From NCBI RefSeq assembly GCF_041081105.1, contig NZ_CP163528.1:992001-1056000 (forward strand): a DNA stretch of 64,000 nt. Direction: 5' to 3'. Each line of letters starts with the position of its first letter. Within the stretch, counting starts at the first letter, position 1. The notes beneath the pieces were generated by a model. It had not been told where the DNA came from. It saw only the letters and a program-made list of their open reading frames with translations, and made no database searches. A program made the translations under genes and the position numbers. Shown here one piece after another: positions 39,528 through 53,722 of the stretch. Source of the DNA: Promicromonospora sp. Populi (GTDB lineage: Bacteria; Actinomycetota; Actinomycetes; Actinomycetales; Cellulomonadaceae).

Positions 39528-41381
39528 TCAGACCAGCGAGTCCTGCCAGGCCTCGTGCAGCTTGGCGTACCGCCCGTCGCCGGCGATCAGCTCGGCGGGT
39601 GTGCCGTCCTCGACGATCCGCCCGCCCTCCATGACGAGCACCCGGTCCGCGATGGCCACCGTGGACAGCCGGTGGGCGATGATGATCGCCGTCCGGTCGG
39701 CCAGCAGGGTCTGCAGACCACGCTGCACGAGCCGTTCGCCCGGCATGTCGAGCGAGGACGTCGCCTCGTCGAGCACCAGCACCGCCGGGTCCGCGAGGAA
39801 CGCCCGCGCGAACGACAGCAGCTGCCGCTGCCCTGCCGACACGCGCCCGCCGCGCTTGTTCACGTCGGTGTCGTAGCCCTCGGGCATGTCGAGCACAAAC
39901 TCGTGCGCGCCCACCGCGCGGGCGGCCGCCTCGATCTCCGCCTGGGACGCCCCGGGCCGGCCGAGCGCTATGTTCTCGCGCACGGACCCGCTGAACAGGT
40001 ACGCCTCCTGCGTGACCATCACGACGGCGCGACGCAGGTCGACCGAGGCCAGGTCCCGCACGTCGACGCCGTCCAGGCGCACCGCGCCATTCGTCGTGTC
40101 GTAGAACCGGGTCACCAGCTTGGCCACCGTCGACTTCCCGGCCCCGGTCGTGCCCACGACCGCCACGGTCTGGCCCGCGGGGATGGTGAGGTCCAGGTCG
40201 GGCAGCACCACCGGTCCGTCGCCGTACTGGAACCGCACGTGGTCCAGGCGCAGCTCGCCCCGGGTCCGGCCGTCGGTCAGCACCAGCGGCGTCGGGTTGG
40301 CCGGCTCTGTCACCGTCGGCTCCTCCTCGAGCAGGCCCGACACCTTCTCCAGCGCCGCGGTGGCCGACTGGAACGAGTTGTAGAACATGCCCAGCTGCTG
40401 CACCGGCTGGAAGAACCGCTTGCAGTACAGCAGCACCGCCGCCAGCACCCCCACGGCCAGGGACCCGTCGAGCACCCGCCAGCCGCCGACCGCGAGGGCG
40501 GCCACGACGGTCATGTTGCCGATCAGGATGAGCCCGGGCTGGAACCGGCCGTTGACGCCGAAGATCAGCAGGTTCGCGTCGCGGTAGTCGTCGCCGAGCT
40601 TGCGGTACTCGGCCTCGGTGGTGGGCTCCCGGCGGAATGCCTGCACGGCGCGCATGCCCGTCATGGTCTCGACGAACTTCACGATGAGCCGCGCCGACGC
40701 CGTCCGCTGCTCCCGGTAGAACCGCTGCGACATGCGCTGGAACCAGTGGGTGAGCAGCCACGCCGGCACGAACGCCACCGTGAGCACCAGGCCCGACCGC
40801 CAGTCCACGAAGAACAGGAAGACGAACGTGAAGAACATCAGCAGGATCGAGGAGACGACGCCGGTCAGACCGCCGTCGAGCAGCTCGCGCAGCGCCTCCA
40901 GGTCGGAGGTCTGCCGGGAGATGATCCGGCCCGACGTGTACGACTCGTGGAACTCCAGCGAGAGCCGCTGGGTCTGCCGGAACACCCGGCGGCGCAGGTC
41001 GAGCAGCACGGCCTGGGCGATGCGGGCGGCAGCCCGCACGTAGGCCCCCGCCGCGATGCCGCCCAGGACAGCGGCCACGAGGTACCCCGCCCCGACCAGG
41101 ACCAGCGGCGTGATCGACTCGTCGCGCAGCGCGGGCACTGCCTCGTCGATCGCGATCCCCACCAGCCACGGCCCGGCCACCTGGCCGAGCGTGGAGACGA
41201 TGACGAGCACGGCGGCCCAGGCCAGCGCACGCTTGTGCGGTCGCACCAGGTCGCCCATCAGGCGCAGGGACCGGCGCCGCACGCTGCGGGACGCCTCCTT
41301 GCCGAAGCTCGTCCGGTCGTCCGCGGCCGCATCGGTGGGCCGACGGCGGGCGGCGGGCTGGGGCAGCGTCGGGGCCGTCAT
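39528..41381 (-). CDS. ABC exporter half-transporter (canonical ATPase site)
   Basis: The protein has 617 residues. A six-helix type IV exporter membrane domain (about 45-335) is followed by an ATPase domain with Walker [10 protein letters not shown], signature [14 protein letters not shown] and Walker [13 protein letters not shown] with catalytic Glu. Its start overlaps the stop of the upstream partner gene (ATGA), so the two likely form a TM287/288-like heterodimer. By position it may belong to the siderophore operon and export its product. Multidrug export is the alternative. Confidence 0.9.
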
Positions 41382-43276
41382 GACAGTGCCTCCTGGCTCT
41401 CGGTGGTCTGGGTGTCCGAACCCCGCGGGGTGGGATGGTCCGGATCGTGCGCCTCGTAGTCCTCTTCCAGGCTGGAGATGATGTACCGGTAGTGCGGGTC
41501 GGTCGCGAGCAGGTCGTGGTGCGTGCCGACGGCGGTGATCTGCCCGCCCTGGAGCACGGCCACCCGGTCGGCCAGCGCTACCGTCGACGGGCGGTGGGCG
41601 ATGATCAGGCTCGTCGTGGCCACGAGCACGTCCCGCAGGCGGGCCGTCACCGCCTCCTCGGTGGTGACGTCGAGCGCGGAGAGCGGGTCGTCGAGCACGA
41701 GCACGCGGGGCCGGGCAGCGATGGCGCGGGCCAGGGCGAGGCGCTGGCGCTGTCCGCCGGACAGCGACATGCCCTCCTCGCCGATGCGGGTGTCGACGCC
41801 GTCGGGCAGGTCGGCCACGAAGTGCGCCTGGGCGACCTCCAGGGCCTGGGCCAGGAGCGCCTCGCGCTCGGCCTCGGACAGGGTGTCGGGGACGCCGAGC
41901 AGCACGTTGTCCCGCACGGACGCGGAGAACAGCGTCGGGTCCTCGAAGGCGACGGCGACCCGCTCACGCACCTGGGCGCGGGTCATGTCCCGCACGTCGA
42001 CGCCGTCCACCTCGACCGTGCCCGCCGTGACGTCGAAGAGCCGGGGCGCGAGCATCGCAAGGGTCGACTTGCCGGAGCCCGTCAGGCCGACCAGGGCGGT
42101 GGTGGTGCCGGGTGGCAGCTCCAGGTCGACCCGGTCGAGCACGGGGCGCGCGCCGTCGTCGTACCGGAAGGTGACGTCACGGAAGGCGACGTGGCCGCCG
42201 GAGGTACCCGAAGCACTGGGGGCACCGGAAGTGACCGCCGGGTCCGTCAGCGGGTTCACGGTGTCCATGACCTCGAAGAACCGGTCGACGGCGGTACGTG
42301 CGTTGAGCGTCATCGACAGCGTCATGCCGAGGTCCACCGTGGGGCCGTTGATGACGGCTGTAGTGGCGAAGAACGCGACCAGCGCGCCGATCGTCATGTC
42401 GCCGGACGCGACCAGGTAGGCACCCACCACCAGCGCAACGGCCTGCGTGACCTCGGGGATGACCCGCAGGGCGGTGGTCAGCCCGGCGTCGGTGGTGGCC
42501 TTGCGGATCTCGGTCTCGCGCAGCTCCGCTGCCTGGTCGGTGAACTGGTCGAGCGCGTCCGGGCCGCGGCCGAAGGCCTTCAGCACGCGGATGCCGTGCA
42601 CCGACTCCTCGACGGTGGTGGCGAGGTCGCCCGACTGGTCCTGCGAAAGCCGCGAGATCTTCCGGTACTTGCGCGAGAACCGGAACGCCAGGACCGTCAC
42701 CGGGATCGCCCCGCACAGGAAGATGATGCCGAGCCAGCCGCCCAGCACCACGAGCAGGCCGACGCCGACGACGATGGTCACAAAGCTGACGATGAGCTGG
42801 ATGACCCCGAAGACGAGCCAGCGACGCAGCAGGCCGAGGTCGCCCATGATGCGGCTCAGCAGCTGGCCCCCCGGCCACCGGTCGTGGAACGAGATCGGCA
42901 GGTTCTGCAGGTGCGTGAAGAGCGCCATGCGCATCGTCGACTCGACGCGGGTGCCCGGGAACATCACGAGGGTGCGGCGTAGCAGGATCAAACCGGCCTC
43001 CCCCGCACCGAGCACCGCGACCAGGACAACCGACCAGATCAGGCCGGTGAGGTCGTGCTCACGCACGCCGGTGGTGAGCGGGCCGTCAGTGACCCACTGC
43101 AGGACGCGTGGGATGGCCAGCGCCATGAGGCTGGCGCCGAGCGAGGCGGCCAGGCCGCCGATCAGACGCGGCATGGCGGTACGGACGTAGGGATGGAGGC
43201 GACGGATCGAGGCGAAGGTGCTGCGCTCGGACGATGGATCGGATCGTTTCGAACTGTCGGCTGTTTGAGGCATCAC
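41378..43276 (-). CDS. ABC exporter half-transporter (degenerate ATPase site)
   Basis: The protein has 632 residues, membrane domain first, then Walker [10 protein letters not shown], signature [14 protein letters not shown] and Walker [13 protein letters not shown]. Asp replaces the catalytic Glu, the mark of the degenerate-site partner in heterodimeric exporters. It lies 74 bp after the dimethylargininase-like gene on the same strand. A second ATG one codon downstream of the start is possible. Confidence 0.9.
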
Positions 43277-43350: not shown

Positions 43351-44142
43351 TCAGCGCACCCGCACCGACAGGCAGGTCACGCAGCCCTCGAGCTTCTCGA
43401 ACTCGCTCACGGGTGTGGTCAGCACTGTCAGGCCGCGGCCGCGGAGCAGCTCGGCGGTGCCGGGCGCGGCGTCGGACAGCAGCACTGTGGTCTCGTCCAG
43501 CACGACGACGGCGGTGCCCTCCGCCTCCGGGACCGGCAGGAACGCGTCGAAGACGCCCGCGTCGTCCACGGTGGGTTCGTAGCCGATAATCGTGCCGTCG
43601 GGCAGCGCGGTCACTGCCGACTTCAGGTGCAACGCCCTGGTCACGGGCACCTCCACGACCCGCCACCCGCGCGGTTCGAGCAGCGCCCGGAGCTGGGCCG
43701 CGCCGTCGGCGTCGGTGCGCGTCGTGCGCCCGACGTACACGGTGCGGCCTACCTTGAGGATGTCGCCGCCCTCGAGCGTGCCGGGCGGGGCGATCTCGGC
43801 GATCTCGTGCACGGCGGCCTCCGCCGCCGGCCGCATCGACTCCACCTCACCCCGCCGGGACAGCGCGCCCGGCCGGGTCAGGACGGCGAGGTCGTCGAAG
43901 ATCACCACCGAGTCCTCGACGAACACCCCGTCCGGGTGCGCCTCGGCGGCCGGCACCTCGCGCACGTCCCAGCCGCGACCGCGGAAGACGTCCACGTACT
44001 GTCGCCACTGCCGGGCCGCCAGGTCGGCGTCGACCGGCACGCGCTCGAGGTGGGTCAGCTCGCCGTCCGCCAGGTGAGTCGACGGCGGACGGACGAGCAG
44101 GATGCCACGGGCCGGGCCAGGGTTCGGGGAGCTCGATTCCAT
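43351..44142 (-). CDS. Dimethylargininase-like amidinotransferase-fold hydrolase (DDAH)
   Basis: The protein has 263 residues of the guanidine-modifying beta/alpha-propeller fold. Candidate catalytic residues are Glu76 in FVEDSVVIF, His172 in RALHLKSAV and Cys257 in LEGCVTCLS, in the order expected for N,N-dimethylarginine dimethylaminohydrolase, which yields citrulline and dimethylamine. It starts 9 bp after the penicillin acylase-GNAT gene, which makes it a likely member of the siderophore operon; its role there is unknown. Confidence 0.85.
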   Translation of the reverse strand: MESSSPNPGPARGILLVRPPSTHLADGELTHLERVPVDADLAARQWRQYVDVFRGRGWDVREVPAAEAHPDGVFVEDSVVIFDDLAVLTRPGALSRRGEVESMRPAAEAAVHEIAEIAPPGTLEGGDILKVGRTVYVGRTTRTDADGAAQLRALLEPRGWRVVEVPVTRALHLKSAVTALPDGTIIGYEPTVDDAGVFDAFLPVPEAEGTAVVVLDETTVLLSDAAPGTAELLRGRGLTVLTTPVSEFEKLEGCVTCLSVRVR

Positions 44143-44151
44143 GACGCGACG

Positions 44152-46986
44152 CTAGCGGACCGCCACCTCCGCGAACGCCTCCTCGCGCGTCAGGTAGGCC
44201 ATCCGCGCCTCCTTGGGCCCCTGGGGCGACTCGAACGAGACCAGCTCGCCGGCCGTGAAACCCATGACGGCCATGCGGCGCAGCGCCCTCGCATTGTGCG
44301 CGTCGGGCTCGCCCACCAGGCGCTGGGTGCCGGGCCCCGCGAAGAGGAACTCGCGCATGGCCGGCCGGAGCACGGCCCACGGGTCCAGCGGCGCGCCGTG
44401 CCGCGCCGTCGGCCCGCGACCCCCGAGGAAGAAGTGCATGCCCAGGTCGCCGGGGCGCACGTCGTAGGCGCTGCCGATCGGGTCGTGCTCCGGGTGGTAG
44501 GCCTGCACCAGGACGACGGGGTCGCCGTCCCACCGGACGAGGTACGCGTGGTGGGTCTCCAGGGAGTCCACGAACGCGTAGGTGTCGCGCACCTCTTCGC
44601 GGGTTTGCTCGCCCATCCCCCAGAACAGGGCGTGGGGCTGGATGAACCAGCCGTGCAGCAGGTCGGCGTCGGCCTCCGGGTCCACCACGTGCACGGTGAC
44701 TACGCCGTCCGCGCCGAAGCTGCCCCGCCACACCTCCTCGCCGGGGCTCCCGTTCAGCAGCCGGAGCGTCGTGTCGACCGGCCGCAGCCGGTCCCAGTCG
44801 GTGACGACGCGGGTGGTGCGGGCGTCCGCCCAGGTGGCGTGCTGGTCGTCGAAGTGCAGGTGGCCCGGCCGGCCGGAGGAGCCGAAGGGCACGCCCCACC
44901 GGCTATTCGCGCGGTCGTCCAGGTCCCAGACGTACCGCGCGACCGACCCGCGGTAGGCCGTCGGCGCCACCCCGGGTGATCCGCCGGTGCAGCGCACGGT
45001 CTCGTTGTTGCCCGAGACCGGGGCGGGAGCTACGTCGGGCAGGCGGCCCGCCGCACTCAGCGAGTCCGGGACCGGACGCAGCGGGGCCGGGACATGCAGG
45101 TCCCCCCAGGTCGGTTCGTCCTGCCCGACGGCGGCGGCCGCCACCTCAGCCACCACTTCGGCCAGCGCCGCGCGGGCCTCGGCCGCGGCGTCGATGCGGG
45201 TGGGCTGCCCGTCCGGTCCCTCGACGACGAGCCAGTCCGCCGCGAGGATCCGCCCGAGGCCTGCGCCGACCGAGGTCGGGACGTCGAAGACGCCGTCGAA
45301 CACGGAGGCGTTGGCCCCTGTGGCCTGGCCGTGCGGCGCGTACAGGCCCGCGAACACGGGGTGGTTCGCGATCCGGCGGGTCAGCGCGTCGCGCCACCGC
45401 ATGTACAGGGCGGCGTCCGTCGAGCCCGCCTCCACGTGCGCGCCGTCGGCGACCCAGGCGCGCAGGCGCGCGGCGGCGCCGGACGGGGCGGCGTCCGGGT
45501 AGGCCTCGGGGTGGGCGTCAAGGTGGGTGTCAAGGTGGGCGACGAGATCGGCCGCGCCCAGGTCGCGGGTGTCGCCGTGGATGCGGGCCTGGGTCTCGGG
45601 AGACTCCGGTTCGGTCGCCGCGGCGAGGAGCTGCCGGATCCGCTCGGCGCGGTACGGCGCGTACGACCAGCCGAGGTCGTGCGCCTCGCGACCGGGGCGG
45701 ACGTCACGCGGGCCGAGGCCCGGCCGGCCGTCCAGCCCGGCGGGCTGCTGCGTCGTCGGCCGCTCGTTCGCGTCGACCGCCACCTGGGTCACGGGGATGG
45801 GCGCCGGGAGGTCGGCGTAACCGTCGGCGGGCTTCAGGACCGGAAGCGCACGGTCCGGGAGCCCACGGCCGGGCAGGCCGGAGACGTCGGCGGGTACCTT
45901 GCCCGCAGTCATGCTCAGCACGTCGCCCGTGCTGTCCGCGGCGAGCACCCGGTTAACCGGGTCGACCCACCCGGCGAATGCGTCGGCGACGTCGCGGGCG
46001 GTGCGGACGTGCAGCAGCGCGCGCCAGGACGCGACGCCGACGTCGGACAGCTCCCGCGCCGGCCAGTTCAGGCGCCAGCCCTCGGGTCCGGCGGCGTCGG
46101 CGCCGTCGGACACTACCTCGACGTGGTGGGCCGCGGCGTTGGTGATGCCCCAGGCGACCGACGACCCGGCCTGTGCCGAGCCCGTCGAGACCGCACCCGG
46201 CGACACCGCACCCGGCGAGACCGCGTGCCCGAAGTGCGGGATGCCCGGCACCCCCGGGAAGGCGAAGCCAAGCACGTCGTAAGGGTCGGCCGGGTCCGTG
46301 CACGCCAGCCGGATCTGCTGGTACGGACCGGGCAGCTCCAGCGTGCGGTGCGGGTCCCCCGCCACCAGCGGGCTGCCCGACTCGGTGTACGACCCGTGCA
46401 CCGCCCAGGCGTTCGAGCCGGAGCTCGCCCCGGCGTCGGCCGAGAACAGGCCGAGCACCCGCTCCAGCACCCCGGGGACCCGCAGGTGCCGGGCGACGTG
46501 CGCACGCACAAGGATGCTGGGGAACCCGTTGAACAGCACGTGGGCCGTGAGGAACACACCGATCGGCGTCCAGGGCAACCACGGGCGGTACGGCACGCCG
46601 GCCAGCTCGGACACGTCCCGGCCGCCGGCCAGCAGGCCGGCGCTGACACCGTCGGCGTAGGCCGTGAGCCAGGCGCGCTCCGGCTCCGCGAGGGCGTCGT
46701 AGATGCGCTGGGCCGTGAGCGCCAGCCGCTCCCGGGCGGCGAACCGGTCCCAGGCCGCGCCATCAGCACCGGCGATCTCGGCGAACCGCTCCTCGGCCCG
46801 CATCCGGTCGGCCTCGATCTGCAGGCCCCGGTCCTGGGCGGTCACCCAGCCCTGCCCGTAGGCCAGGGCGGTCTCGGTGGCCGCCCGCACGTGCGGGATG
46901 CCGAGGGCGTCACGAAACAGGTCGAAGCTCTCGGAATGGGCGGTCACGTCCCCCATCATCGGACTGTCTGTCACGTTGAGGGTCAT
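44152..46986 (-). CDS. Penicillin acylase-GNAT fusion (DesG-DesH-like)
   Basis: The protein has 944 residues. Residues about 20-730 are a penicillin acylase (Ntn hydrolase): a helical A-chain, then a GS-N cleavage region with candidate nucleophile Ser191 in GSNAWAVHGS, and VAGDPHRTLELPGP. Residues about 750-944 are a GNAT domain of the IucB/DesC/MbtK type (RPGDLGMHFFLGG, GEPDAHNARALRR). There is no signal peptide, so it acts in the cytoplasm, unlike most penicillin acylases. In some Streptomyces, separate DesG and DesH genes next to desABCD are proposed to make aryl-acylated desferrioxamines; here both are one chain. The ATG overlaps the synthetase stop. Confidence 0.85.
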   Translation of the reverse strand: MTLNVTDSPMMGDVTAHSESFDLFRDALGIPHVRAATETALAYGQGWVTAQDRGLQIEADRMRAEERFAEIAGADGAAWDRFAARERLALTAQRIYDALAEPERAWLTAYADGVSAGLLAGGRDVSELAGVPYRPWLPWTPIGVFLTAHVLFNGFPSILVRAHVARHLRVPGVLERVLGLFSADAGASSGSNAWAVHGSYTESGSPLVAGDPHRTLELPGPYQQIRLACTDPADPYDVLGFAFPGVPGIPHFGHAVSPGAVSPGAVSTGSAQAGSSVAWGITNAAAHHVEVVSDGADAAGPEGWRLNWPARELSDVGVASWRALLHVRTARDVADAFAGWVDPVNRVLAADSTGDVLSMTAGKVPADVSGLPGRGLPDRALPVLKPADGYADLPAPIPVTQVAVDANERPTTQQPAGLDGRPGLGPRDVRPGREAHDLGWSYAPYRAERIRQLLAAATEPESPETQARIHGDTRDLGAADLVAHLDTHLDAHPEAYPDAAPSGAAARLRAWVADGAHVEAGSTDAALYMRWRDALTRRIANHPVFAGLYAPHGQATGANASVFDGVFDVPTSVGAGLGRILAADWLVVEGPDGQPTRIDAAAEARAALAEVVAEVAAAAVGQDEPTWGDLHVPAPLRPVPDSLSAAGRLPDVAPAPVSGNNETVRCTGGSPGVAPTAYRGSVARYVWDLDDRANSRWGVPFGSSGRPGHLHFDDQHATWADARTTRVVTDWDRLRPVDTTLRLLNGSPGEEVWRGSFGADGVVTVHVVDPEADADLLHGWFIQPHALFWGMGEQTREEVRDTYAFVDSLETHHAYLVRWDGDPVVLVQAYHPEHDPIGSAYDVRPGDLGMHFFLGGRGPTARHGAPLDPWAVLRPAMREFLFAGPGTQRLVGEPDAHNARALRRMAVMGFTAGELVSFESPQGPKEARMAYLTREEAFAEVAVR

Positions 46987-49454
46987 GCCGGTCTTCTCCG
47001 TGCCGGGTTGGCGAGGGTGCCGGCGTAGATCAGCGACTCCGACTGGTTGGCCAGGTCCACCATCTGCAGGGTGTTGCGCAGCTGCAGGCGGTTGAGGCAC
47101 GAGTGCGCGAAGCGCTCGGTCCGCAGGTCGATCCCGGTCCTGAGGTCCGGGTGCTCGGTGGCGTGCCGGTCGATCGTCTCGGCGACCAGCGCCCAGAACC
47201 GGTCCTCGCCCAGCACGCCGTCCTCGGCGAGGATGCCGGACAGGTGCCGCAGCACGCCGTCGAACACGTCGGTGAAGATCGCGAGCGCCTTCTCATCGTC
47301 GCTGACCACTGAGCGGATGCGGGCGATGCCGTCGGGCAGGGGGTGGTTCCCCAGCACGGCGACCTCTTCGCCGACGTCCTTCATGATGGCGCGGCGCACC
47401 ACGCCGTCGCGCAGGACGAGGATGAGGTTCTCGCCGTGCGGCATGAACGCGAGCTCGTAGCTGAGCAGGGTGTGCACCAGCGGGTAGAGATAGGCGTCGA
47501 GGTAGGCGCGCAGCCACTGCTCGGCCGGGATGCCGGACTGCCGGATCAGGCCGGTCGCGAACGAGGCTCCGCTCGCGTCGCGGTGCAGCAGGCTCGCCAT
47601 GGTCACGAGCCGCTCGCCGGTGTCGAGCCGGGGCAGGGGCGACTCGCGCCAGAGGGCGGCGAGCATCTTGCGGTGCGGGTTGGACTGCGCCTTGTTCAGC
47701 GGCGCGCGGTGGTAGATGTCGCCCGTGTAGCCGGCGGCGGCCACCTCGCGGAGCATGCTGAACCCGGCTCCCTGCAGGGTCTGGTCGTTCGCGACCAGGT
47801 TCGCCACCCAGTCGTTGATCTGCGGGGTCGAGCGCATGTAGGCCGGGGAGAGGCCGCGCAGGAATCCCATGTTCTGGATCGCGAGCGCCACCTTGACGTA
47901 GTGCCGTTCGGGGCGGGTGCGGTTGAACATGGTGCGGATGGACTGCTGCGGCTGGTACTCGTCCGATCCGGGTCCGAGCGGCACGAGGTCGCCGCGGGCG
48001 ACGTCGGCGGCGAACGTGATGGCTACGCGGTGCTCCCACTGCCAGGGGTGCACAGGCAGGTAGAGGTAGTCGGCGCTGTCGAGGCCGCGGGCGGCGAGGC
48101 GGTCGGCGAAGGCGGCCCGTTCGGCCGCGGAGAGCTCGGCGCCGTAGTGGCCGGCTTCGGTCTGGTCGGCGGCGAGCGAGAGGTGGGTGTGCTCGCGGCG
48201 GGCGGCGAGCCACAGCATGCGCATGCGTGCGCCGCGTTCGGGGGCGTAGGCGCGGTAGTCGCTCAGGGAGAAGCCGATGCGGCCGTTGTTCGCGACGAAG
48301 CCGGGGTGTCCCTCGGACATGGCGGCCTCGGTCTGCTGGAAGGCTTCCGCCACGGTGTGCGTGTCGGACGCGGCCTGCGCGCTCGCGAGCAGCCCGGCGA
48401 CCGAGGGGGTGCTCCCGTCGAGCTCGCGCTCGCGCTTGGCGGCTGCGCTGGCCAGGGTGGAGGAGAGCTCTTCGAGGTAGGTCGCCAGCATGTCGTCCGG
48501 GACCTGCAGCAGCGGCTGCAGCTCGGTGATCAGCTCCAGCGCGTCCACGGGCAGGGCGACGTCGCCGCCTACCCCGGTGTCGGCCGTGCGGCGGATGGAC
48601 GCCGGGTCGATGACCCAGTGCTCCAGGGTGTACCGGCGGGCGGTGAACCGGTAGCTGACGGCGTCGAGGGTGAGGCGGTAGGTGCCGGGCGCCTCGCCCG
48701 GGGCCTCTCCTGGCAGGGTGGCGTCGAGCTCCGGCTGGAACAGCCGCTCGTGGGCGAGCTCGGCGAGCACCTTGGCGGCGAGGTGCCGGTGCGCGTGCTG
48801 CATGTGCTCCGGGGTCAGGTGCCCGGCAGTCAGGTGTTCAGTGGTCAGGCGTTCGGCGAGGTGCGCGCCGTCGCCGAGGGCGGACGTCACGAAGTCGGCG
48901 CGGGTGGCGACGCTCAGGGCGGCGCGCTTCGCGTGCGCGCCGTGGCCGAGGTCTACCTCGCGCAGCACGCGGAACCCGGCTGCGGCGTTCTTCGCGGCGA
49001 TCTTCCGGTTGCGGACGTCGGGCTCGACGACGACCCGGGCGGCGCCGGCCTCGGTGAAGCAGAACCGCATGACTGCGGTCATGACGGCGTCCGTGAGGCC
49101 GTGCCGCGGGGTCGCGGGCGGGGCGACGAGCAGGTGCATGCCGACGTCGCCGGGTTGTGCGTCGTGGACGCCGTCGAGCACGACGTGCGCCGGGTCGTAG
49201 GTCTCGGTCAGGAACACCGGCTCGCCGTCGAGGCGGCCCAGCCAGGCGGCCTCGTGCGGCCGGGACTGGATGCCGACCAGGTACTCGCGCACCTCGTCGA
49301 CCCGGAGGTCGGCCATCTGCCAGTAGGAGGCCGAGGGGTGCGCGAGCCATTCCTGGACCAGGTCGGCGTCGCGTGCCGGGACAACGGGCTCCAGCGTGAT
49401 CTCGCCGAGCCGGGTGGTGGTGCTGTACAGGTGCACGGTGGTCGGGGCGCTCAT
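46983..49454 (-). CDS. GNAT-NIS synthetase fusion (DesC-DesD)
   Basis: The protein has 823 residues. Residues 1-190 are a siderophore GNAT acyltransferase (QPGDVGMHLLVAPP, VVVEPDVRNRKIAAKNAAAG), expected to acylate N-hydroxycadaverine. Residues about 215-823 are an IucA/IucC-type NIS synthetase with VHPWQWEHRVAITF, NKAQSNPHRKM and FMPHGENLILVLRD, which activates carboxylates with ATP and joins the units. In Streptomyces these are two genes, desC and desD. A His/Leu/Thr-repeat linker joins the domains. Start and stop both overlap the neighbouring genes by ATGA. Confidence 0.92.
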   Translation of the reverse strand: MSAPTTVHLYSTTTRLGEITLEPVVPARDADLVQEWLAHPSASYWQMADLRVDEVREYLVGIQSRPHEAAWLGRLDGEPVFLTETYDPAHVVLDGVHDAQPGDVGMHLLVAPPATPRHGLTDAVMTAVMRFCFTEAGAARVVVEPDVRNRKIAAKNAAAGFRVLREVDLGHGAHAKRAALSVATRADFVTSALGDGAHLAERLTTEHLTAGHLTPEHMQHAHRHLAAKVLAELAHERLFQPELDATLPGEAPGEAPGTYRLTLDAVSYRFTARRYTLEHWVIDPASIRRTADTGVGGDVALPVDALELITELQPLLQVPDDMLATYLEELSSTLASAAAKRERELDGSTPSVAGLLASAQAASDTHTVAEAFQQTEAAMSEGHPGFVANNGRIGFSLSDYRAYAPERGARMRMLWLAARREHTHLSLAADQTEAGHYGAELSAAERAAFADRLAARGLDSADYLYLPVHPWQWEHRVAITFAADVARGDLVPLGPGSDEYQPQQSIRTMFNRTRPERHYVKVALAIQNMGFLRGLSPAYMRSTPQINDWVANLVANDQTLQGAGFSMLREVAAAGYTGDIYHRAPLNKAQSNPHRKMLAALWRESPLPRLDTGERLVTMASLLHRDASGASFATGLIRQSGIPAEQWLRAYLDAYLYPLVHTLLSYELAFMPHGENLILVLRDGVVRRAIMKDVGEEVAVLGNHPLPDGIARIRSVVSDDEKALAIFTDVFDGVLRHLSGILAEDGVLGEDRFWALVAETIDRHATEHPDLRTGIDLRTERFAHSCLNRLQLRNTLQMVDLANQSESLIYAGTLANPARRRPA

Positions 49455-50887
49455 CGGGCTGCCTCCATCTTGTTGTCGCTCGTGTTGTCGCTGCGGATCT
49501 CGTCGAGCCCGGCGTCCGGCAGGCCGAACTGCTGGAAGGCAGTCCGGCGTTCGATCGGGTACGGCTCCCGGCCCGTGATGCCGGCGAGGATCACGGAGTT
49601 GCGCCAGGCCCCGAAGCCGAGGTCGGGCGCGGTCACGCCGTGGGTGTGCTCCTCGCCGTTGACCACGTGGATGCGCCGGTCGTCGTCGACCGTGTAGTTG
49701 CGGGTGACGTCGTACCGGCCGCGCGCGTCGAGGTTGACCAGGCCGGGCGCGAGGAAGCCGGGCACCGAGGCGGCATAGCCCGTGGCGGCCACCACCGCGC
49801 GGGTGCGGTGCTCCGCCGTCGTGCCGAGCTGGGCGTGGCGGAGCGTGAGGACGTACTCGCCGGCCCCGCCCGCGCCGTCGGCGTCGAACCGGGACGCGAC
49901 CACCTCGGTGTCGCTGAGCAGCGTGGTCGGCACCTGCGCGCCCAGGGCGGACTTGCGGTAGAGGGTGTCGTAGATGTCGTCGATGAGGTCGCCGCTGATG
50001 CCCTTGTAGAGGTTGCGCTGCTCGCGCCCCAGGACGTCGCGCTGCTCGATCGGCAGGGACACGTAGTGGTCGGTGTACTCGGGCGACGTCATCTCCAGCG
50101 TCAGCTTTGTGTACTCCATCGGGAAGAACCGCGGCGAGCGGGTCACCCAGTCCACCCGGTGCTCCCCCGGCCCGGTGCCGCAGCCCTCCAGCAGGTCGCG
50201 GTAGACCTCGGCCGCGGACTGCCCGCTGCCGACCACCGTCACCGACCCGCTCGCGGCGAGCTCCGCCCGGCGCGACAGGTAGTCGCTGGTGTGCACCACC
50301 GGGCCCGCGCCGTCGAGCCCGCTCAGGGCTTCCGGCAGCCGCGGCTGGGTCCCGGTGCCCAGCACAAGGTGCTTGGCACAGTATTTCTCGACGCCGTAGG
50401 CGGTCTGGGCAGTCACCTCGAACAGGTAGCTGCCGTCGAGCGCGCCGTCGTCGGGCCCGATGCCGTCGGGCCCGATGCCGTCGGCCGTCGCGGCCGGGTC
50501 CGGCACGCGCACGACGCTGATCACCCGCCGCCCCCAGCGCAGGCTCGGCAGCTGCTCGGCCACCCAGCGGCAGTACTGGTCGTACTCGGCGCGCAGCGGG
50601 TAGAACGACTCGCGGACGTAGAACGGGTACAGCCGCCCGGTCGCCTTGAGCCAGGCCAGGAAGGAGTACGACGACGTCGGGTCGGCCATCGTCACCAGGT
50701 CGGCCAGGAACGGGACCTGGAGGGTGGTGCCCTCGATCAGCATCCCCGGGTGCCAGGAGAAGGCCTCGCGCTGGTCGAGGAACACCGCGTCGACGTCGGC
50801 CAGGGGCTCCGCGAGCGCCGCGAGGCCCAGGTCGAACGGGCCGATCCCGATGCCGAGCAGGTCGTAGGTCGTGGTCGGGGCGGTCAT
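49451..50887 (-). CDS. desB: Cadaverine/lysine N-monooxygenase (DesB-like)
   Basis: The protein has 478 residues of the SidA/IucD/PvdA flavoprotein family. LGIGIGPFDLGLAALAEPL is the FAD-binding start, VTVVGSGQSAAEVYRDLLEG the NADPH site, and VVAATGYAASVPGFL the conserved C-terminal ATGY motif. In this context it N-hydroxylates cadaverine made by the adjacent decarboxylase. Both ends overlap neighbours by ATGA. Confidence 0.92.
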   Translation of the reverse strand: MTAPTTTYDLLGIGIGPFDLGLAALAEPLADVDAVFLDQREAFSWHPGMLIEGTTLQVPFLADLVTMADPTSSYSFLAWLKATGRLYPFYVRESFYPLRAEYDQYCRWVAEQLPSLRWGRRVISVVRVPDPAATADGIGPDGIGPDDGALDGSYLFEVTAQTAYGVEKYCAKHLVLGTGTQPRLPEALSGLDGAGPVVHTSDYLSRRAELAASGSVTVVGSGQSAAEVYRDLLEGCGTGPGEHRVDWVTRSPRFFPMEYTKLTLEMTSPEYTDHYVSLPIEQRDVLGREQRNLYKGISGDLIDDIYDTLYRKSALGAQVPTTLLSDTEVVASRFDADGAGGAGEYVLTLRHAQLGTTAEHRTRAVVAATGYAASVPGFLAPGLVNLDARGRYDVTRNYTVDDDRRIHVVNGEEHTHGVTAPDLGFGAWRNSVILAGITGREPYPIERRTAFQQFGLPDAGLDEIRSDNTSDNKMEAAR

Positions 50888-52587
50888 CTGGTCTCTCCGT
50901 CGGTATCCGGGTCAGCGTCTAGCTCGGTGGTCAAGTCTGTGCGGTGCAGGTCGGCGTGGTCCAGGTCCGTGTGGTCCAGATTCGCGTGGTCCAGATTCGC
51001 GTGGTCCAGGCCTGCGCCGTCCAGATCAGCGCGCGCGAGCCGCGGGTGCACGTCGCGGCAGGGTGGCTCCTCGGTGCCGGCGAGCGCCTCCCCCGCGAGC
51101 AGGCCGTGCGCGGCGGAGCGGACGAGCTCCAGCACGCCCCGGATGTCGGCGAGCGTGGCGTCGGGGTTCAGCAGGGTGAGCTTGAGGCAGGGGCGGCCGT
51201 CGATGACGGTCTTGGCCACCAGTGCGCGGCCCGAGTCGAACAGCACGCGCCGCACCTGCGGCACGAGGGCGTCCGCGCGTGCGGCGTCGAGCCCCTCGGG
51301 CTGGTAGCGGAACAGGACGGTGGACAGGTCGGTGGTGCCCACGAGCCGGAAGTCGTTGTCGTGCGCGAGGTCCTGGTGCACGGCGGCGGCCAGGTCGCAG
51401 ACGGCGTCCACCATGGCGCCGACGCCATCGGGCCCGAGCGCGCGGAGCGTGACCCACAGCTTGAGCGCGTCGAAGCGGCGTGTGGTCTGCAGGGACTTGT
51501 CGACCTGGTTGGGTTCGGCGTTCTCGGGCGGGTTGAGGTAGTCGGCGTGCCAGGCCACGGGCGCGAGGTCCGTACGCTCCCGGACGATCAGCGCGCTGGA
51601 GGACACGGGCTGGAAGAACGACTTGTGGAAGTCGACGGTGACGCTGCGGGCGCGGTCGATGCCGGCGAGCAGGTGGCGGCGCGTGGTGCTCACCAGCAGC
51701 CCGCAGCCGTAGGCGGCGTCGACGTGCAGCCAGGTGCCGACGGCGTCGCACAGGTCGGCGATCGCGCCGAGCGGGTCGATGCAGCCGCGGTCGGTGGTGC
51801 CGGCGGTCGCGACGACGGCGATCACGGTGTCGCCGGTGCGCTCGATGTCGACGAGGGTCTCCGCCAGGGCGTCCGGGCTCATCCTGCCGTCGGCGTCGGT
51901 GCTGACGGCGACCACTGCGTCGTCGGGCAGGCCGAGCAGCAGCGCGGACTTGGCGACGCTGAAGTGGCTCACGGCCGTCGCGAGGATGCGCATGGACTCC
52001 AGGCGGGTACCGGTGCGGCGCGCCTTCTCGCGGGCCAGGAACAGGGCCTGGAAGTTGGACTGGGTGCCACCAGAGGTGAAGATGCCGTCGGCGCCATCGG
52101 CTCTCCCGGTGACCGGGAACCCGATGCGGCCCGCCGTCCAGTCCACGAGGCGACGCTCCATCAGGGTCGCGATCGTGGACTGGTCGTAGGTGTCGACCGA
52201 GGTGTTGATCGCGGCCAGCATCGCCTCGGCGCCCACCGCAGGCAGTGCGACCGGGCAGTTCAGGTGTGCCGCGTAGGTGGGTTCGTGGAACCAGATCGTG
52301 TGCTTCGCATACAGGTCCGCTGCCTCGCGCAGCGCCTCCTGCGTGCCCGACGGCGGGCCGTCGAGGTCCACCGCGTCCACCAGCCCTTGCAGCTCTGAGC
52401 GGCTCGCCCCGGAGAACGGCTGTGTCACGGCCCTCAGCCGGGCCGCGACGTCGTCGACGACGTCGCGGACTGTCTCCGTATAGGCACTCGCGGTGGCCCC
52501 GCGCAGCAGCGCGGTCGTGTCGTGGCGCGCACCCGGGGCGGGTGCGCTGGTCACTGGCTGCGTCACTGCGGGCAGGCGTGAGGGCAT
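50884..52587 (-). CDS. desA: PLP group II lysine decarboxylase (DesA-like) with pentapeptide tail
   Basis: The protein has 567 residues. Lys322 in VTVDFHKSFFQPVSSS binds PLP, His208 and Asp290 (WLHVDAAYG) complete the cofactor site, and SGGTQSNFQALFLAR is the phosphate loop. It decarboxylates L-lysine to cadaverine, the first step of desferrioxamine synthesis; diaminobutyrate or another basic amino acid is a less likely substrate. Residues about 520-553 form roughly seven pentapeptide repeats of the A(N/D)LDH type, encoded by 15-bp DNA repeats and absent from usual DesA. ATG 52587 is preceded by GAGGAG. It is the first gene of the operon. Confidence 0.9.
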   Translation of the reverse strand: MPSRLPAVTQPVTSAPAPGARHDTTALLRGATASAYTETVRDVVDDVAARLRAVTQPFSGASRSELQGLVDAVDLDGPPSGTQEALREAADLYAKHTIWFHEPTYAAHLNCPVALPAVGAEAMLAAINTSVDTYDQSTIATLMERRLVDWTAGRIGFPVTGRADGADGIFTSGGTQSNFQALFLAREKARRTGTRLESMRILATAVSHFSVAKSALLLGLPDDAVVAVSTDADGRMSPDALAETLVDIERTGDTVIAVVATAGTTDRGCIDPLGAIADLCDAVGTWLHVDAAYGCGLLVSTTRRHLLAGIDRARSVTVDFHKSFFQPVSSSALIVRERTDLAPVAWHADYLNPPENAEPNQVDKSLQTTRRFDALKLWVTLRALGPDGVGAMVDAVCDLAAAVHQDLAHDNDFRLVGTTDLSTVLFRYQPEGLDAARADALVPQVRRVLFDSGRALVAKTVIDGRPCLKLTLLNPDATLADIRGVLELVRSAAHGLLAGEALAGTEEPPCRDVHPRLARADLDGAGLDHANLDHANLDHTDLDHADLHRTDLTTELDADPDTDGETR

Positions 52588-52620
52588 GCGGAAGGCTCCT
52601 CGTGGAGGGATGATAGGAAC

Positions 52621-52639
52621 GCCGTCCGGACCGGACGGC
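52621..52639. repeat. Palindrome in the desA leader
   Basis: GCCGTCCGG-A-CCGGACGGC, a 9-bp perfect palindrome between the iron box and the desA start. It could form a leader hairpin or bind a second regulator. Confidence 0.5.
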
Positions 52640-52650
52640 GGAGCGAACAC

Positions 52651-52695
52651 TTAGGTTTGCCTGACCTAACTTAATCGCTCGGAGACCCTCGTCAA
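52651..52695 (-). promoter_or_regulatory. Siderophore operon promoter with IdeR/DmdR iron box
   Basis: TTAGGTTTGCCTGACCTAA (52651-52669) matches the 19-bp iron box consensus of DtxR-family repressors (IdeR/DmdR1) at nearly all positions. Reading leftward, a -35 TTGACG (52690-52695) and -10 TAAGTT (52668-52673) with a 16-bp spacer overlap the box edge, so Fe-loaded repressor would block the polymerase. The box ends 64 bp before the desA ATG. Confidence 0.88.
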
Positions 52696-52867
52696 GACGT
52701 GGGTGAAACAAGGTACGTGGCGCCCGTCACTCCGAGCTCGCTCCGCGCTCGCTTCCCGCTCGCGACAAGCCTGCTCAGGGCACCTCACGCAGAACCTCAC
52801 CAAGAAACTCTGAGCGAAACGCCGCGCAATCCTGGGCATAGAGCCCCCACATCGGTACGTTTCCCCC

Positions 52868-53722
52868 ATGAGCAGTGACAGCGACGCGCCTCAGTCCGAG
52901 GGCGGCGAGAAGACTGAGCGGATGGACCGCCTACGGGCTCTGCTGACCAAGCCCATCAAGATCCCGGAGTCCGCCTCGGCCGACACCGAGGACGCCGACT
53001 ACGCCGCACCCGTGGCGGACGCCGCGGCGCCCAAGGGGGCCAGGACATCGATGACAGCGCCACCGAAGGGCACCAAGGTGCCGGTCGAGACCCCGCCGGC
53101 GGTCAAGGCCGCGGCCGAGGCGCTCGACCGCCTGACCGAGGAAGAGGGCGAGGAGAAGGACGCCGTCGCCGACGGATCCGGATCCGGCAACGGGTCGGGC
53201 AAGCGCAACAAGTCCCGGCGGACCTGGGCCGACGCCTACCTCGCCAAGCCCGACGAGCCCCTCACGCCGGAACAGGTCCGCGCCGAGCTGACCGTCGCGC
53301 TCAAGGAGCAGGGTGCGGAGGTCCGCGAGCTCCTGGCGAAGCAGGGCACCGCCCACGAGAAGGCCTTCGAGGCGGCGCGGGAGACGGCCGAGGCCGAGCT
53401 GACCGCCCGGTTCGACCTCAGGCTCGACGAGCTGGCCGGCTCGGTCGAGGTGGTCTCGGTGACCGCCCGCGACGAGGCGACGCGGCTGCAGGGGCGGATC
53501 GACGAGCTCTCCGCGACCAGCGAGGCGCTGCGCACCGACCTCGACGCGGTCCGCGCAGTCGCCTCCGCGGCCCAAGCCGCGGCGGACTCGGCCACGACAG
53601 CCGCATCAGCGGCACGCGAGGCCACCGACGCCGCGACGAAGAAGGCGGCCACCGCGACCACCTTTGCCTGGGTCGGCATCGCGCTGGCCCTGGTGGCCGC
53701 CGTGCTCGCGGTAGTGGTCTAG
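52868..53722 (+). CDS. Tail-anchored coiled-coil protein of unknown function
   Basis: The protein has 284 residues with an acidic, disordered N-terminal half (Pro/Ala/Gly/Ser linkers), a positively charged patch GKRNKSRRTWADAYLAKPDE, a long coiled-coil/Ala-rich helix (about 135-262) and a single C-terminal membrane helix AWVGIALALVAAVLAVVV. There is no signal peptide, so it is a cytoplasmic protein anchored by its tail. The architecture resembles ParA/wall-associated coiled-coil factors only in general. It is divergent from the siderophore operon, about 200 bp from the iron box. Confidence 0.7.
   Translation: MSSDSDAPQSEGGEKTERMDRLRALLTKPIKIPESASADTEDADYAAPVADAAAPKGARTSMTAPPKGTKVPVETPPAVKAAAEALDRLTEEEGEEKDAVADGSGSGNGSGKRNKSRRTWADAYLAKPDEPLTPEQVRAELTVALKEQGAEVRELLAKQGTAHEKAFEAARETAEAELTARFDLRLDELAGSVEVVSVTARDEATRLQGRIDELSATSEALRTDLDAVRAVASAAQAAADSATTAASAAREATDAATKKAATATTFAWVGIALALVAAVLAVVV

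Follow-up and report, generated by a model that had tools for sequence, protein, structure and literature searches.

Which siderophore is made by a run of five minus-strand genes at 43351-52650 of the window (the whole 64,000-nucleotide stretch of Promicromonospora sp. Populi DNA analysed here), two of which encode enzyme fusions? Very probably, this is an iron-repressed desferrioxamine operon with a DesG/DesH acetyl-editing branch, whose products would be desferrioxamines E and B. What we observed directly is which domains the des operon encodes, how its genes are ordered, its operator, its conservation and its relatedness. A first-pass annotation of this DNA had proposed a cadaverine-hydroxamate pathway of the desferrioxamine type, and both the domains and the nearest solved relatives support it.

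Reading frames and domain searches identify desA, desB, desCD, desGH and a dimethylargininase gene, in that order. The product of desA (50884..52587, 567 amino acids) is a PLP-dependent decarboxylase with a Pyridoxal_deC domain (PF00282, E 3.7e-57), and desB (49451..50887, 478 amino acids) encodes a flavin N-monooxygenase with a Lys_Orn_oxgnase domain (PF13434, E 5.6e-108). They are followed by desCD (46983..49454, 823 amino acids), which joins a DesC-like GNAT to a DesD-like NIS synthetase, and desGH (44152..46986, 944 amino acids), which joins a DesG-like Ntn amidase to a DesH-like GNAT. ATGA-type overlaps connect desA to desB (50884-50887), desB to desCD (49451-49454) and desCD to desGH (46983-46986), each with ATG as the start and TGA as the stop; 9 bp lie between the desGH stop (TAG at 44152) and the ATG at 44142 of the dimethylargininase gene (43351..44142, 263 amino acids). 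These coordinates, together with the Pfam and NCBIfam domains, bear out the five same-strand genes, overlaps and 9-bp gap described at first pass. For desGH we took the ATG at 46986 rather than a longer GTG frame from 47100. The start of desA is most likely ATG 52587 rather than the listed GTG 52650, because the latter lies directly at the iron box. Next after the dimethylargininase gene come two co-oriented ABC-transporter genes (39528-43276), which may belong to the same transcription unit as the des genes. Domain searches identify them as halves with TM and ATPase regions, at 41378..43276 (half 1) and 39528..41381 (half 2) on the minus strand, with an ATGA-type overlap between them. Half 1, a candidate siderophore exporter, is present in all 14 related loci; half 2 is nearly full length in 13 of the 14, with only residues 10-52 in the remaining one (L044).

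Just upstream of desA lies an iron box, a DtxR/IdeR/DmdR-type operator with the sequence TTAGGTCAGGCAAACCTAA (52651..52669, minus strand). Scored against TTAGGTNAGNCTNACCTAA, which we take to be the iron-box consensus, it has one mismatch; the 5.2-Mb genome holds eight sites with two or fewer mismatches to this pattern, and a reversed-pattern control gave none. Against a stricter consensus the box has two mismatches, with none expected in a shuffled window, and it is unchanged in 10/10 Promicromonospora loci that cover the region. The desABCD locus, judged by its sequence, has an upstream iron-dependent operator, and control by iron is the best explanation. None of seven Peripla_BP_2 matches in the genome was assigned as a ferrioxamine uptake gene. 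One of these genes, judged by its ORF start, begins some 40 bp downstream of an iron box; ferrioxamine is not named by its best PDB relatives, so we claim no uptake gene.

All four Pfam domains by which a desABCD locus is recognized in the available text of PMC12161575 (PF00282, PF13434, PF13523 and PF04183 within 5 kb) score above cut-off here, in neighbouring genes that overlap by 4 bp. The top PDB match of DesA is 5o5c, a 'putative decarboxylase involved in desferrioxamine biosynthesis' (E 1.3e-123). For DesB it is 6xbb ('monooxigenase', E 1.3e-128), presumably a desferrioxamine enzyme, followed by 5o8p, an 'L-lysine 6-monooxygenase involved in desferrioxamine biosynthesis' (E 8.6e-116). 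In desCD, matches to Acetyltransf_8 (E 1e-46, residues 26-169), IucA_IucC (E 3.4e-82) and an FhuF-like domain (E 4.2e-31) place the NIS synthetase at about residues 206-823. Its top PDB match is DfoC, 5o7o, aligned over residues 8-820 (E 1.5e-183), and DesD entries come next over residues 210-819. The protein therefore has the N-terminal GNAT and C-terminal NIS synthetase of a DfoC-type fusion in one reading frame, and the earlier suggestion that DesC is fused to DesD holds. The accompanying generalization that DesA, B, C and D are separate proteins fails, both for DfoC and for BibC, a fusion ORF of the bisucaberin (bib) genes with homology to both MbsC and MbsD (PMC5577590, in the part available). 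The bib genes resemble desCD in this DesC/DesD-type fusion and differ from our operon in that the same part mentions no desGH. Similarly, Erwinia amylovora dfoJAC shares with our operon a decarboxylase, a monooxygenase and a GNAT-NIS synthetase fusion; its three proteins (DfoJ, DfoA and DfoC) are named for desferrioxamine E, the major product, but the available text of PMC6391442 names no desGH among them.

The second fusion, with Penicil_amidase (E 8.8e-98) and Acetyltransf_8 (E 5.5e-39) domains, is the known DesG+DesH pair, an identity that was missed at first pass. PF01804 and PF13523, which the pair rule in the available part of PMC12161575 places within 1 kb of each other, here share one polypeptide, with the amidase at residues 1 to about 735 and the GNAT at about 736-944. 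The two parts form a single open frame in 11/11 Promicromonospora loci, two of which (L043 and L044) cover only the C-terminal part of DesG. In Streptomyces coelicolor, according to the same text, desABCD and desJGH supply the same six enzyme types under iron-box control, but as six separate genes at two loci, compared with four polypeptides in one operon here; no desJ-like gene is found among the genes examined in the operon. Mutants of that species show that desG and desH are both needed for desferrioxamine B, which falls about 1000-fold without desG and 16-fold without desH, while both mutants make more E (PMC12161575, available part). Its authors propose an HSC-to-HAC swap for the pair, and desuccinylation by DesG is likewise their proposal.

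DesG has an intact nucleophile block. Alignment predicts Ser191 of 944 (codon TCG at 46414..46416, minus strand; context ASSG/SNAW) as the N-terminal nucleophile, and this serine aligns with the first beta-chain residue of both 35sz and 4hsr. Among the 38 loci listed for this search, a GSN.W...[GA]DPHR block is present in 12/12 related desG stretches (L032-L042 and L045) and, as a wider pattern, in all 12 that cover the region out of 17 further related loci, the other five of which do not cover this region. The closest PDB relative, 35sz (E 1.6e-46), is a penicillin acylase family protein whose beta chain matches, without a difference in 429 aligned residues, the DesG-like protein encoded after a DesD-like gene in another siderophore locus (L094). 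Its PDB entry lists the alpha and beta chains separately, with the break before the serine aligned here, which directly supports autoprocessing in the DesG family. Unlike in desGH, no GNAT fusion showed up for the L094 protein in the search, which gave no DesH match for that genome at E <= 1e-20. By eye, the N-terminus of DesG shows no apparent signal peptide. An AlphaFold model of DesGH was weak (mean pLDDT 65.3, pTM 0.62, from a 17-row alignment), with 296 of 944 residues below 50, including 184-221 at the nucleophile; a fold search with it returned D-succinylase first at an rmsd of 11, and given the weak model we treat this ranking as minor evidence.

The first-pass suggestion that the two GNATs use different acyl donors is also supported by our results. 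The DesC and DesH domains fall into separate clades with 100/100 support (36 and 23 rows, each named after whichever of the window's two domains it scored better against, and thus not independently of the window), the second GNAT of the operon lying in the DesH set rather than the DesC set. Among the fixed differences between them, one column is E in 36/36 DesC rows and Q in 23/23 DesH rows; the GxH and EPDxxN motifs are retained in both. As two different subfamilies, they likely differ in donor. Acetyltransf_8 matches do not tell acetyl from succinyl transferases, and the donors are not fixed by sequence. Weak, below-cut-off NCBIfam matches link DesH to aminoglycoside 6'-acetyltransferases.

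The same enzyme types could in principle make other products. A dimer like alcaligin or bisucaberin, the dimeric product of the bib genes, or a putrescine-based hydroxamate would fit the similarity of desCD to AlcC-type 2x0o (E 1.4e-143), of DesB to putrescine N-hydroxylase 7us3 (E 5.8e-100) and of DesA to 2,4-diaminobutyrate decarboxylase 2qma (E 2.2e-92), as well as the best NCBIfam model of DesA, L-2,4-diaminobutyrate decarboxylase, which falls far below its cut-off (429 against 900 bits); that of DesB is a putative histamine N-monooxygenase (360 against 700 bits). We nonetheless consider such a product very unlikely, as each enzyme ranks nearer to desferrioxamine proteins than to alcaligin, putrescine or diaminobutyrate enzymes in the PDB comparison, the very check that might have moved the decarboxylase and monooxygenase to another pathway, and surveyed strains without desGH made only uncapped desferrioxamines (PMC12161575, available part). 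Aryl- or other acyl-capped desferrioxamines, with the amidase or second GNAT handling phenylacetyl-type groups as the first-pass annotation had suggested, are highly improbable and were rejected as the main reading. Penicillin G acylases, which on that reading should lead the ranking, match DesG weakly, with E 1.2e-8 at best and only in the alpha-chain region, behind 35sz and then cephalosporin/glutaryl acylase (E 4.9e-32), an order that leaves aryl or phenylacetyl chemistry without support here; they are absent from the 50 fold matches shown for the DesGH model, and no aryl-CoA ligase is among the seven operon and neighbour proteins scanned with Pfam and NCBIfam. In S. coelicolor, no arylated desferrioxamines were identified, according to the available text of PMC12161575. 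D-succinylase matches the window's DesG at E 1.5e-4, below the penicillin G acylase alpha chains (about 1e-8), and two other DesGs more strongly (E 2.2e-34 and 6.9e-35).

A separate question is whether the dimethylargininase (NF045660, 381.7 bits against a cut-off of 340) is a working part of the desferrioxamine pathway. Its closeness to desGH, 9 bp here and as the next recognized gene in 8/9 Promicromonospora loci that have it, would suit such a role, as would His (LHLK) and Cys (VTC) stretches that align with solved dimethylargininase 3rhy. Yet the locus DNA contains it in only 9/11 Promicromonospora loci (L040 and L043 are without it) and in none of the 3 Cellulosimicrobium and Antribacter loci that carry this pathway; a TnpB-type gene sets it apart from desGH in L035; no pathway step requires it; and titles and abstract starts yielded no literature link between siderophore gene clusters and dimethylargininase. 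Given this patchy presence we reject it as a pathway enzyme, a role we regard as extremely unlikely, and it is probably a passenger.

Neither fusion type is new: desCD has the DfoC layout, and fused desGH, with amidase and GNAT on one polypeptide as here, has been noted in Streptomyces atratus and Micrococcus CH3/CH7 (PMC12161575, available part). What is unusual is both fusions in one operon, a known kind of system in an uncommon gene layout. A search for the same domain orders found both together only in the window's own genome among 396 sampled genomes of the phylum, a frequency based on these genomes, 39 relatives and one scan of genome contigs. Among the relatives, three matches (G006, G009 and G010) were reported with one internal stop; loci of similar sequence (L034, L036 and L044) have an open frame across both covered domains and the protein ends earlier, so we read the stop as probably a normal protein end.

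We infer substrates, acyl donors, products and hand-over from the S. coelicolor mutants and from homologues. On this basis, DesA would decarboxylate lysine to cadaverine, DesB would N-hydroxylate it and the GNAT domain of DesCD would add succinyl to give succinyl monomers, which the NIS synthetase domain would join, succinyl units only yielding desferrioxamine E. DesG, probably an autoprocessed cytoplasmic Ntn hydrolase, would remove succinyl from part of the N-hydroxy-N-succinylcadaverine, and DesH, on the same polypeptide, would acetylate the freed N-hydroxycadaverine, which would provide desferrioxamine B with its acetyl cap. The succinyl (C+D) and acetyl-editing (G+H) branches would thus be kept on separate polypeptides. 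The fused and split labels of DesGH switch at least four times on the tree, as a functional hand-over would lead one to expect. More speculatively, DesGH could be a single-chain acyl-exchange machine in which N-hydroxycadaverine passes unreleased from the amidase to the acetyltransferase site and the proportion of DesGH to DesCD determines the desferrioxamine B/E ratio. We think this rather unlikely.

Desferrioxamine B is used as a drug against iron overload, and it was only in 2025 that desGH were reported as the genes tipping the balance from E towards B (PMC12161575, available part). With the acetyl-editing and succinyl-assembly pairs each on a chain of its own, the proteins of this operon are convenient for testing succinyl removal by DesG and hand-over to DesH. 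If DesGH is indeed an editing machine, Promicromonospora would have the succinyl and acetyl branches naturally divided between two polypeptides, and desuccinylation and hand-over, as proposed, could be tested there directly. Apart from this, what the operon contributes is further detail of gene layout in a pathway already known.

Reading from 52587 down to 43351 on the minus strand, domain matches identify a PLP decarboxylase (desA, likely ATG at 52587), a flavin N-monooxygenase (desB), an 823-residue GNAT plus IucA/IucC fusion (DesCD), a 944-residue penicillin-amidase-family plus GNAT fusion (DesGH, ATG at 46986) and a dimethylargininase ending at 43351. Three 4-bp ATGA-type overlaps join the first four genes and the fifth starts 9 bp past the desGH stop, all as the first-pass annotation had described. 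Among named loci, the closest relatives of the operon region are from Promicromonospora. Short tandem repeats with units of 12 or 15 bp lie within desA, desB, desCD and desGH (50941-51033, 50431-50484, 48804-48849, 46181-46224 and 45510-45541). The C-terminal tail of DesA resembles a pentapeptide repeat; a 4-residue ADQT repeat occupies the matching position in Promicromonospora iranensis UTMC 00792. As DesA tails vary in length and content among 12 other loci examined, rapid repeat turnover is suggested.

In a ranking of PDB sequences, DesA is nearest to the desferrioxamine decarboxylase 5o5c (E 1.3e-123), DesB to 6xbb and then the desferrioxamine monooxygenase 5o8p, and DesCD to DfoC (5o7o; E 1.5e-183, residues 8-820 aligned), whose layout it shares. 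The best NCBIfam models, diaminobutyrate decarboxylase for DesA and histamine N-monooxygenase for DesB, fall far under cut-off.

The DesG part ranks closest to the beta chain of 35sz (E 1.6e-46) and to cephalosporin/glutaryl acylase (4.9e-32), with weaker matches to penicillin G acylase (1.2e-8) and D-succinylase (1.5e-4). All 429 aligned beta-chain residues of 35sz are identical to a DesG-like protein encoded after a DesD-like gene in a genome of the same class (L094:1501-3402); a DesG homologue therefore already has a solved structure, in which the alpha and beta chains split ahead of the serine aligning with Ser191, the predicted nucleophile of the window protein. D-succinylase clearly matches two other DesGs (E 2.2e-34 and 6.9e-35), for which penicillin G acylase is weaker or absent at E <= 1e-20. 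With an AlphaFold model of low confidence (mean pLDDT 65.3) as query, Foldseek placed D-succinylase at the top (E 1.6e-12, rmsd 11), followed by glutaryl/cephalosporin acylases. Cephalosporin/glutaryl acylases act on dicarboxylic half-amides, as, by its name, does D-succinylase, and removal of a succinyl group by DesG therefore fits better than removal of phenylacetyl, although this is no proof.

PMC12161575 reports that, in Streptomyces coelicolor, desferrioxamine B falls about 1000-fold in a desG mutant and about 16-fold in a desH mutant, with desferrioxamine E rising in both, and proposes that DesG takes succinyl off and DesH puts acetyl on. It also records desGH fusions in Streptomyces atratus and Micrococcus CH3/CH7, and suggests that DesH, when fused, can act ahead of re-succinylation. 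BibC is likewise described, in PMC5577590, as a fusion similar to DesC-DesD. Given these reports and DfoC, neither fusion type is new.

The two GNAT domains were compared in 36 DesC-type and 23 DesH-type rows, window included (matches of >=100 bits from loci L032 upward, without stop-containing or identical rows), each named by its better match to one or other of the window's own domains. Both sets keep the GxH histidine and the EPDxxN motif. At one column all 36 DesC rows carry E (DesCD residue 84) and all 23 DesH rows carry Q (residue 93 of the excised DesH segment), and the tree splits the sets with support of 100/100; three long-branched rows are of unsure placement.

A related-locus search returned 14 loci (11 Promicromonospora, two Cellulosimicrobium, one Antribacter). 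A single open frame spans DesC and DesD in all 12 readable loci (L043 and L044 left out); the same holds for DesG and DesH in 11/14, every one of them Promicromonospora, and in the remaining three loci these two are separate. In a sample of 396 genomes from the phylum, DesCD had a match at E <= 1e-20 in 27 and DesGH in 24. Where both parts lay in fetched loci, DesC-DesD shared a frame in 3 of 24 genomes (G000, the window's own, G175 and G343) and DesG-DesH in 4 of 9 (G000, G304, G240 and G143). High-GC DNA gives long open frames, but in fused cases the in-frame gap between the two domain matches is <=117 nt. Within these fetched loci, only the window's genome carries both fusions. By well-supported branches, the DesGH fused/split label changed at least four times, by gains or losses. 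The split Antribacter DesH is placed, weakly (85/70), inside the Promicromonospora group, and the change there may have been either a gain or a loss of fusion.

A palindromic iron box (52651-52669) lies 63 bp upstream of the likely desA ATG. The consensus TTAGGTNAGNCTNACCTAA finds eight places in the 5.2-Mb genome at <=2 mismatches, and a reversed-pattern control none. The identical 19-base box precedes desA in 10/10 Promicromonospora loci covering the region, its start 69-93 bp ahead of where the desA match begins. In both Cellulosimicrobium loci the closest site at that place carries three mismatches, and in Antribacter two. With this operator sequence, the operon would be expected to respond to iron. 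Beside the box, the divergent gene 52868-53722 encodes a 284-residue protein without a Pfam match. Elsewhere in the genome, a Peripla_BP_2 iron-complex binding protein gene (L115:590-1573) starts shortly past another iron box (2080029-2080047 of contig C1).

The dimethylargininase gene occurs in 9/11 Promicromonospora loci, directly after desGH in eight, and in none of the three other related loci within the locus DNA examined; it looks like a passenger. In P. iranensis UTMC 00792 an OrfB_IS605/Cas12f1-like TNB (TnpB-type) gene (L035:12917-14581) sits between desGH and dimethylargininase; strain UTMC 3169 has no space for it at the corresponding place. Downstream, on the same minus strand, lie two ABC transporter halves (43276-39528). 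The pair adjoins the operon in Antribacter and lies about 4.5-6 kb off in Cellulosimicrobium. Because the first half is present in 14/14 related loci and the second, nearly full length, in 13/14, they are better candidates for a functional link than dimethylargininase, and the pair is a candidate siderophore exporter.

The operon encodes a pathway of the desferrioxamine type, and its gene layout is uncommon. Sequence analysis establishes its anatomy, conservation, relatedness and operator sequence; its substrates and products are presumably those of desferrioxamine synthesis, and DesG would hand over to DesH.
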